Assembly (NCBI GenBank): GCA_900696525.1
Contig: CAADGL010000007.1
Coordinates: 248,001-312,000 of the forward strand
Length of the DNA stretch: 64,000 nt
Source: an uncultured Planctomycetota bacterium
Lineage (GTDB): Bacteria; Planctomycetota; Phycisphaerae; UBA1845; Fen-1342
Reading direction: 5' to 3'
Positions 12,645-14,779 of this stretch are shown one piece after another. Made by a program: the position numbers and the translations under genes. How positions within the stretch are numbered: the stretch's first letter is position 1; each line of letters starts with the position of its first letter. The notes beneath the pieces are model-generated. The model was given only the letters and a program-made list of their open reading frames with translations, did not search any database and was not told the origin of the DNA.

Positions 12645-13439
12645 ATGCGCATCGCCCTGTTCACCGGAAACCAGCCGCGACACCTCGCCCTGGTCGAGCG
12701 CCTCGCGGCCGCCTGCGACGCGCTGTTCGTCGTCCACGAGTGCACCACCGTCTTTCCCGGAAAGGTCGCCGACCTGTATCGCCGCTCCGATGTCATGCAG
12801 CGCTACTTTCACGCCGTGCTTGCCGCCGAGCGAACCGTCTTCGGCGCGCCGCGCTTCGCACCGGGCGGCGTGCGGCCGCTGCTGCTGAGGCTCGGCGATC
12901 TCAGCGACCTGCCGATCGACGCGCTCGCGCCCGCGCTCGATGCCGACGTCTTCGTCGTCTTCGGGGCCAGCTACATCCGCGGTGCATTGTGCGACTACCT
13001 CGTGGCGCGCCGGGCGCTGAACCTGCACATGGGCCTCTCGCCGTACTTTCGCGGCAGCTCGACGAACTTCTGGGCCATGTATCACCGCCGGCCCGATCTC
13101 GTCGGCGCGACGATCCACCTGCTTACGGCCGGCCTCGACTCCGGCCCGATCCTGCGCCACGTCTTTCCGCCCAGCCGGCCATTCGACGCCTTCGAGCTGG
13201 GAATGCGCGCCGTCGAAAGCGGCCAGCGCGCCCTGGCGGAGCTTGTGGCCAGCGGCGAGTGGCTGAGGATGCAGCCCGTTCCCCAGGATCGCGCGCGGCA
13301 GATTCGCTACACGCGGACCGCAGACTTCACCGACGCGGTCGCCGCGGAATACCTGGCCCGGCTGCCCGATCCTGACAGCATCATGACAGCCCTGGCCGCC
13401 CGCGACATGCGCCAGTTCGTGAACCCGGTCGTGGGCTAG
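12645..13439 (+). CDS. Formyltransferase family protein (sugar N-formyltransferase-like)
   Basis: This 264-residue protein belongs to the formyl_trans_N family, which uses 10-formyltetrahydrofolate to formylate an amine. The catalytic triad is visible as Asn and His in LNLHMGLSPYFRGSSTNFW and Asp in LLTAGLDSGPILR. It lacks the C-terminal tRNA-binding domain of methionyl-tRNA formyltransferase. It is also too divergent for phosphoribosylglycinamide formyltransferase, so an amino-sugar substrate is more likely. It follows the NodB-like gene by 6 bp. A MITE-like element begins immediately after its stop codon. The exact substrate cannot be read from the sequence. Confidence 0.85.
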   Translation: MRIALFTGNQPRHLALVERLAAACDALFVVHECTTVFPGKVADLYRRSDVMQRYFHAVLAAERTVFGAPRFAPGGVRPLLLRLGDLSDLPIDALAPALDADVFVVFGASYIRGALCDYLVARRALNLHMGLSPYFRGSSTNFWAMYHRRPDLVGATIHLLTAGLDSGPILRHVFPPSRPFDAFELGMRAVESGQRALAELVASGEWLRMQPVPQDRARQIRYTRTADFTDAVAAEYLARLPDPDSIMTALAARDMRQFVNPVVG

Positions 13440-13441
13440 TA

Positions 13442-13567
13442 GTGTAGTGCCCCGCAAATAACTGCCTGTCCCTATGCAGGGTGGGGCGGGCTTCCAGCCC
13501 GCCCGAGCGGGCAAGATGCCCGCTCCACCCATCCGTGATACCGTCACATTTTTGCGAGGCACTACAC
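13442..13567. mobile_element. MITE-like element with 17-19 bp terminal inverted repeats
   Basis: The left end GTGTAGTGCCCCGCAAA and the reverse complement of the right end (GTGTAGTGCCTCGCAAA) agree at all but one base. The element is 126 bp, is flanked by TA on both sides (13440-13441 and 13568-13569), and carries a large internal palindrome (GGGCGGGCTTCCAGCCCGCC and AGCGGGCAAGATGCCCGCT). TA duplication and this size suggest a miniature element mobilised by an IS630/Tc1-type transposase. It inserts directly behind a stop codon. No transposase gene is in the window. Confidence 0.72.
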
Positions 13568-13690
13568 TAGGGAGTGCAGACAAAGGGGGCTGGGTTGCCG
13601 GAGTGTGCGCAGGGATTACGCCAGGGAGCGCAGGTCAGAGCCCCGGCTGTCCGCAGCCCGATTCCACCACAGGCACGCGGCGGCGGGCGC

Positions 13691-13716
13691 AAAAAAAGCG
13701 ACGCCGGGGCATCGCT
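13691..13716 (-). terminator. Intrinsic terminator of the large ncRNA
   Basis: On the minus strand AGCGATGC (13716-13709) pairs with GCGTCGCT (13704-13697) around the 4-base loop CCCG, an 8-bp stem with one G-U pair. Seven T (13697-13691) follow at once. This is a textbook Rho-independent terminator, and its orientation fits the minus-strand promoter at 14751-14779. Confidence 0.85.
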
Positions 13717-14744
13717 GAACGCTCGTGGTCCTTCGGAGCATTCGCGCTTGCTGCTCGTCCCGCGCACGTTACCGCCACGGGCCGGCCTCTTGTGGGCTTC
13801 ACCGCTCGTTCAGAGCCTCGGACCTGCGTCAGTATCGCCGCATGGGTTAAGCGATCCCGCTCTGCCGTTGGCCCTTGCCCCGGCTATGCGGTTTTTCCGA
13901 CACAAGCTGCGACGGCCACAGTTAAGCAACCGCCAGCGGACTCTCCTCGGGCTTGGCTACCCTCTAGAGTTTCGCCCAGCAAGCACTAGCCGGCCGGCCA
14001 CAGCCGTCCGGCCTCTCCCATGGACTCTGCTTCCCTACAGCACATACAGGCAATCGCGGTCCACAGTTTGCGGGCATTCCAAGCCCGCAAAGTTCCGCCT
14101 TCAGGGTTTGGCCACCCTCTTGACGGTTTCCTCCCGCGACAGCCGCGCCGGCTTTATTTCACGCCGACAGCGCTCTTGGGATTCACCCTTCGGAGCCTTC
14201 TCCTCCCAACGGGTATCCGACGCGTCTCCGCGAAGGATGAACCCACATGCCGTTCCTTTCACCGGATGTTGCGCCTCACGGCGCCCGGACCGGCGAACCG
14301 CGGCTCCTGGGCTTTAACCCCGCTGGGAATCCCTCGCCGACGACGGTGTGGTTAGCACAGCCGCCGACCGGATGCTCCCTTGGGTTTTCCCCCTTCCAGG
14401 GTAGATCAGCCGAAGCCTTCGCCGGGTGTTTGCCCGGCAATCCTCTCACGCGCTTTGGGCCGCTGCCTCGCGACAGCAGCGACGCGCCTCAGAGTATCTC
14501 AGCCTCGACCCAGCCACGACCTGCCGACGGCTAGCGCCGGATAGGTCACGGCAACCCTCTTAGGGTTCTCGTGCCAGTACGACCCCAGACATTCGAGCGG
14601 GCAAACCTGGCGGGCTATGGGTTCACCTCACGCCGAACCGCACCATCACTGGCACGACTCGACGATCTTTGCAGGCCGACACGCCCTGCCGGAGCTGCCT
14701 GGGACCGTCCTGAGGCACCGAGCATTCAGCGACCTCAGCGTCGC
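13691..14744 (-). ncRNA. Large structured noncoding RNA, about 1.05 kb, class not recognised
   Basis: On the minus strand this stretch has a complete transcription unit without a convincing reading frame. A near-consensus promoter is followed by a predicted start at G14744, and an intrinsic terminator with seven T ends it at about 13691. The predicted transcript begins with a hairpin (GCGAC 14744-14740 with GTCGC 14733-14729). Further perfect stems are TTTGCGGGC/GCCCGCAAA (14067-14091, 9 bp, 7-base loop), GCCGGG/CCCGGC (14421-14438) and AACCCT/AGGGTT (14553-14567). A 10-bp long-range pairing joins 14569-14578 to 14648-14657. I see no RNase P, tmRNA, rRNA or group II intron domain V signature. 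It could be a member of a known large-RNA class that I cannot match by eye, or a new one. Confidence 0.72.
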
Positions 14745-14750
14745 ATCAAC

Positions 14751-14779
14751 ACTATAGCACGCAGAAACCGCACGTGCAA
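14751..14779 (-). promoter_or_regulatory. Sigma-70-type promoter of the large ncRNA
   Basis: On the minus strand the -35 element TTGCAC (14779-14774) and the -10 element TATAGT (14756-14751) are separated by exactly 17 bases. The implied start is near G14744, which is the first base of a perfect 5-bp hairpin. This is among the strongest vegetative promoter matches I found in the window. Confidence 0.8.

Follow-up and report, generated by a model that had tools for sequence, protein, structure and literature searches.

The minus strand of the window (the whole stretch of 64,000 nucleotides of planctomycete DNA analysed here) carries, from position 14744 to position 13691, what is almost certainly a genuine structured RNA gene of about 1054 nt, delimited by blastn and alignment and represented by homologues of 1035-1125 nt. 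The best explanation for the data as a whole is that this standalone gene of approximately 1.05 kb encodes an RNA that acts in trans as an architectural molecule or as the scaffold of an RNP, a reading to which we assign a probability of about 0.55. There is strong sequence-based evidence for a conserved, structured RNA gene that presumably acts in trans, and it comes from the promoter, the paired ends of the RNA, covariation throughout the fold and the distribution of homologues.

The gene is predicted to be standalone and trans-acting, transcribed from a promoter of the sigma-70 type. A -35 box, TTGCAC (14774-14779), and a -10 box, TATAGT (14751-14756), both on the minus strand, are separated by a 17 nt spacer, and a further 6 nt lie between the -10 box and G14744. 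In an alignment of 42 distinct homologues a TTG box 16-19 nt from the -10 box was present in 35 and a correctly spaced TANNNT in 37, and the full pair occurred in 35/42 homologues compared with 2/2100 random positions inside the RNA. The promoter and the start at G14744 proposed in the sequence-only reading are thus conserved features, with homologue matches beginning at about that position, and both ends of the conserved unit, in the blastn matches and in the alignment, coincide with G14744 and with a run of seven T.

This U-run (13691-13697, minus strand) is the presumed site of termination, and in most homologues a U-run falls at the corresponding point of the alignment. A terminator had been predicted here from the sequence; its seven T were borne out but its local 8-bp hairpin was not, the individual pairs being canonical in 17-54% of homologues and a local hairpin of at least 7 bp forming in a minority (15/42). 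The 3' arm of that hairpin pairs instead with the 5' end of the RNA, forming a closing helix, P1, in which the 5' strand (14733-14744) pairs with a 3' strand (13698-13709) directly 5' of the U-run, so that 5' GCGACG pairs with CGUCGC just before it. P1 reaches at least 7 contiguous bp in 31/42 homologues; its pair 14739/13703 covaries with a p of about 2e-6 and occurs as four Watson-Crick pair types, compensations are lineage-specific (for example GCUACUGA/UCAGUAGC and GUGGCAAGAAGGC/GCCUUCUUGCC), and P1 strands form a median of 8 bp with their own partner compared with 4 with a foreign one. Some homologues have A.C mismatches in P1. The same 5' sequence can form a hairpin, H1 (14729-14744; 14744-14740 paired with 14733-14729), of at least 5 bp in 41/42 homologues. 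H1 and P1 exclude each other, and in 42/42 homologues predictions give the end-to-end duplex the greater stability. The H1 pairs are canonical in 38-41 of the 42 but show little covariation, and for this reason we only infer a switch between the two. A pseudoknot suggested between 14734-14738 and 14710-14714 did not hold up, each pair being canonical in 20-34 of the 42 and lacking covariation. When end pairing was searched for in divergent copies, a clear promoter together with P1 was recovered in some classes only (L036, L045); L045, a distant planctomycete copy and one of two with such a layout, carries TTGACA-TATACT, then a P1 of 10 bp, and its RNA is 1066 nt long. Others (L039-L042) showed P1-like pairing with no clear promoter, and the search of second-phylum copies yielded nothing convincing. 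tmRNA and RNase P RNA are closed by long-range helices, and the window RNA shares this feature with them.

Covariation was assessed in a sequence-based MAFFT alignment of the 42 full-length homologues, all from the same order and with a mean identity of 64%. The RNAalifold consensus contained 245 pairs at -318 kcal/mol, compared with -10 to -21 kcal/mol for column-shuffled alignments. In a home-made, R-scape-like procedure (a G-test with APC against 30 alignments simulated on the tree, an approximate null), 14 of about 600,000 column pairs passed E 0.05, most of them canonical. Within the consensus structure 56/245 pairs covaried significantly, with a mean of 94% canonical pairing, and no pair covaried in five controls in which the structure was slid by one to three columns, so covariation strongly supports the structured RNA that the sequence-only reading anticipated. 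The core was also compared in 46 sequences from across the phylum: 22/29 pairs showed two-sided compensatory changes, 96.8% of cells paired compared with 38-54% in slid versions, and the covariation score was 0.552 against 0.05-0.10, although the sequences had been aligned to fit the structure, which biases this alignment towards it. Several of the individual stems singled out earlier were not borne out. Six pairs of a 9-bp stem at 14067-14091 are conserved (81-98% canonical); only 3/10 pairs of a proposed helix between 14569-14578 and 14648-14657 reach 90% canonical or more.

The fold is built from a 5' domain and five copies of one module that share a single consensus topology. The outer part of the module consists of an outer helix, a 3x3 loop, a helix and a three-way junction with hairpin A and a stem; the inner part is a second three-way junction bearing hairpin C and an arm of helix, 3x3 loop, helix and hairpin B. 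Copy 1 is D2 (14391-14564, 3x3 loops 14561-14559/14397-14395 and 14490-14488/14449-14447), copy 2 is D3 (14185-14385, loops 14381-14379/14191-14189 and 14307-14305/14248-14246) and copy 3 is D4 (14032-14181, loops 14177-14175/14038-14036 and 14121-14119/14102-14100), the most conserved core and the basis of the models R1 and R2 described below. Copy 4, D5 (13728-14025, outer loop 14021-14019/13734-13732), contains a nested copy 5 (13805-13951, loops 13947-13945/13811-13809 and 13887-13885/13863-13861) in which hairpin A is weak; all lie on the minus strand. When a model of D4 was run over both strands of 42 loci (166 kb), 32/32 secondary matches fell inside the RNA and on its own strand, most of them weak individually. 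The flanking pairs of nine well-aligned 3x3 loops were A.A or G.G in 730/756 cases, and mixed A.G pairs were observed 5 times against 100 expected from the columns. At variable positions both flanking bases change together between A.A and G.G, and few column pairs in the entire alignment covary more strongly than two of these switches. Several hairpins are capped by UNCG- and GNRA-type tetraloops. The 5' domain, D1 (14571-14718, minus strand), differs in topology and comprises covarying helices, a UNCG loop at 14693-14690 and a conserved AGGUGAAC. This Shine-Dalgarno-like sequence, followed by CAUAG, lies at window positions 14632-14615.

Homologues were collected by blastn against 60 relatives, and matches to the region were found in 36/61 genomes including its own, nearly all of them single copy; many extended over the full length, with identities of about 66-73%, and homology covers the whole 1.05 kb. 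The collection was extended with two covariance models, R1, built on the core (window about 14197-14053), and R2, a broader core model, the E-values of both being rough. R1 detected the RNA in 47/114 genomes of the order and gave no match in the sampled genomes of the class outside it; in classes of the phylum besides the window's own, the RNA was found in 33 genomes with R1 and 37 with R2. The range exceeds the planctomycetes, as the same core was found by R2 in 30/141 genomes of a second phylum, taken to be Myxococcota because the record of one of its MAGs names Myxococcales, and single genomes there have as many as six diverged copies; the best of these copies aligns to positions 83-1097 of the planctomycete profile with an E-value of 4e-44. 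In the phylum of Pseudomonas, 150 genomes yielded a single weak match. Three exact-pattern matches in off-phylum Leptolyngbya, Myxococcales and Pseudomonas records were dismissed as short or chance hits (at most 17 bits with R1, no R2 match in those genomes). The carriers with names are MAGs of Phycisphaerae and other Planctomycetota, and nearly all of the carriers found are MAGs. Several diverged paralogues per genome, some with inserts in the core, occur in the second-phylum genomes G770 (L200-L205), G895, G831 and G888, and two copies each in the planctomycete genomes G238 (on contig C25), G209, G104 and G144 (on C8), those of G144 being short partial matches 3.8 kb apart. Copies compared within the same genome were 60-79% identical and are therefore diverged paralogues rather than recent duplicates. 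The RNA was present in 29/65 good genomes of the order, and because of this patchiness it is not universally essential. Its tree mixes families (10 changes against a minimum of 4 and a shuffled mean of 19.2), and transfer or hidden paralogy must therefore be allowed for. The patchy presence, the multiple copies in one phylum and the family-mixing tree together indicate that the RNA is accessory and often lost, and that it has probably sometimes been transferred.

One rival explanation is that the region is a protein gene on either strand and its RNA structure incidental, which we consider scarcely credible. Sense open frames have a median of 125 amino acids compared with 131 in shuffled sequence and sense coding is not conserved, so the lack of a convincing protein gene noted in the sequence-only reading stands. 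On the antisense strand the open frames exceed random length (median 192 amino acids), yet they fall to 99 amino acids in some homologues, lack conservation from one homologue to another and have no counterpart in Pfam or NCBIfam, and the 56 covarying pairs are not expected of coding sequence. Another possibility, also very improbable, is that the RNA is a long 5' leader that would control the gene downstream of it in cis, much as a riboswitch does. It is indeed an intergenic structured RNA, but its U-run lies at a conserved place and no gene family flanks it in more than 6 of roughly 60 loci. Such neighbours as are shared were rejected as constant partners, being lineage-specific only. For example, in one family (f7; L150, L151 and L152) the RNA gene is divergent from an rnpA-like gene, identified by eye from its translation, about 250-300 bp upstream, and other families have different neighbours; in five loci from two families (L139, L141, L143, L144 and L155) a PIN-PhoH-like gene, also identified by eye, is encoded on the strand of the RNA, 200-450 bp upstream of it. 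Downstream of the RNA in the window is a MITE-like element of roughly 130 bp (13438-13574) in which imperfect terminal inverted repeats (CTAGTGTAGTGCCTCGCAAAAA ... TTTGCGGGGCACTACACTACTAG) flank a GC-rich palindrome. A stretch just downstream of the RNA (13630-13665; L002 1501-1535) recurs elsewhere in the same genome, at G000:C11:219850, with 89% identity over 35 bases; it probably belongs to a dispersed repeat that has no connection with the RNA.

A third explanation is that this is a ribozyme or mobile-element RNA, resembling a group II intron or another selfish RNA, that has lost some of its mobility and is multicopy, patchy and partly horizontal. The six copies reached in some second-phylum genomes, the patchy presence and the mixing of families in the tree would all fit this model, and group II introns are likewise large, multi-domain and present in several copies in some genomes. 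Unlike them, however, the window RNA has its own promoter and U-run, and no Rfam family of ribozymes, the group I and group II introns included, matched in its region even at E 10. The intron-encoded reverse transcriptase is not always present beside group II introns; here no reverse transcriptase, transposase or other gene recurred as a constant neighbour, and the divergence of copies within a genome argues against recent duplication. We regard this explanation as improbable. Somewhat unlikely, in our view, is that the RNA regulates in trans as an RNP or a sponge, much as 6S RNA or CsrB-type RNAs do, and is not itself a particle, its modules being platforms that bind several copies of one protein, the ribosome or polymerase, which would be sequestered or delivered. 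Five module copies with conserved loops and an independent promoter are compatible with this, as is the Shine-Dalgarno-like AGGUGAA of D1, found in 31/42 homologues of the order. AGGUGAA is hardly kept outside the order, however, and as a general ribosome contact it was rejected on that account, and the deep conservation extends to helices and non-canonical loops, beyond short accessible binding motifs. Nor is the RNA the genome's own RNase P RNA, tmRNA or 6S RNA, as these were matched on other contigs (G000:C11, C10 and C17) and the window is on C7. The 6S-like RNA (G000:C17:141904-142086) scored 38.9 bits, below the Rfam cut-off.

The architectural reading places the RNA beside the large ornate RNAs, among which it would form a new family, the class being set by description and not by function. 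None of 4,227 Rfam families matched the region at gathering score; matches at E 10 or below were at chance level, none within the RNA being better than E 9, in agreement with the sequence-only reading, which could not match it to a family. The resemblance that reading saw to GOLLD, ROOL and OLE holds as a description, the RNA being non-coding, well over 500 nt and elaborately folded with covariation support, but not as homology, as the Rfam models of OLE, ROOL, GOLLD and raiA found no match in the region at E 10. Literature searches, with subscription papers and most supplements beyond their reach, returned no description of the RNA. OLE, ROOL and GOLLD are RNA homo-oligomers in solution. ROOL and GOLLD form RNA-only nanocages (PMC12286853), and like the window RNA are long, elaborate, covariation-supported noncoding RNAs with noncanonical purine contacts. 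In contrast to them, the window RNA is chromosomal, is built from a module that occurs in five copies and has P1 as its closing helix at the U-run, and it gave no match in viral contigs, phages or plasmids at the sensitivity of the searches used, a phage or mobile-element presence being a mark of GOLLD and ROOL. OLE, the ornate large extremophilic RNA, is a membrane RNP and a dimer (PMC12286853, PMC12265935). It too is large, standalone and structured, and the unusual A-A helix between its subunits may be compared with the recurring homopurine A.A or G.G pairs described here; it was described in Gram-positive bacteria, whereas the window RNA occurs in planctomycetes and a second phylum and no partner gene was found for it. 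The raiA motif RNA, whose conservation spans more than 2,500 species (PMC11706538) and which resolves as a monomer (PMC12286853), is similarly structured, noncoding and widely conserved, with different hosts.

We propose that the window RNA is architectural because it combines a repeated module, noncanonical loops and closed ends. The repeated modules would adopt similar folds and use their purine loops for stacking, and it is on this basis that an architectural particle RNA is suggested, one that may act as a particle either by itself or together with a single kind of protein in several copies; antisense or cis regulation would not be its mode of action. The chances of a scaffold or particle role as such appear evenly balanced, the argument being from architecture and from analogy with GOLLD, ROOL and OLE (PMC12286853, PMC12265935). 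A tentative extension of this model concerns the ends. The 5' end of the RNA would fold first as H1, and the finished 3' end could then invade it, using the H1 loop as a toehold, so that P1 forms just before the U-run and closing of the whole fold would be coupled to termination and release. Perhaps, though we think it rather unlikely, all of these properties belong together in an ancient multi-phylum family of pseudo-symmetric particles, with five modules, homopurine loops and fold-coupled termination through displacement of H1, which would be an unprecedented RNA machine.

To our knowledge, very few noncoding RNAs that measure about 1 kb and have folds supported by covariation have been described in bacteria. 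The solved structures of OLE, ROOL and GOLLD have altered ideas of what can be built from RNA without other components. The RNA described here has no relation to any family in Rfam, is found in two phyla or more and is visibly modular, and the sharp non-canonical pairing rule of its loops makes its three-dimensional fold directly testable.
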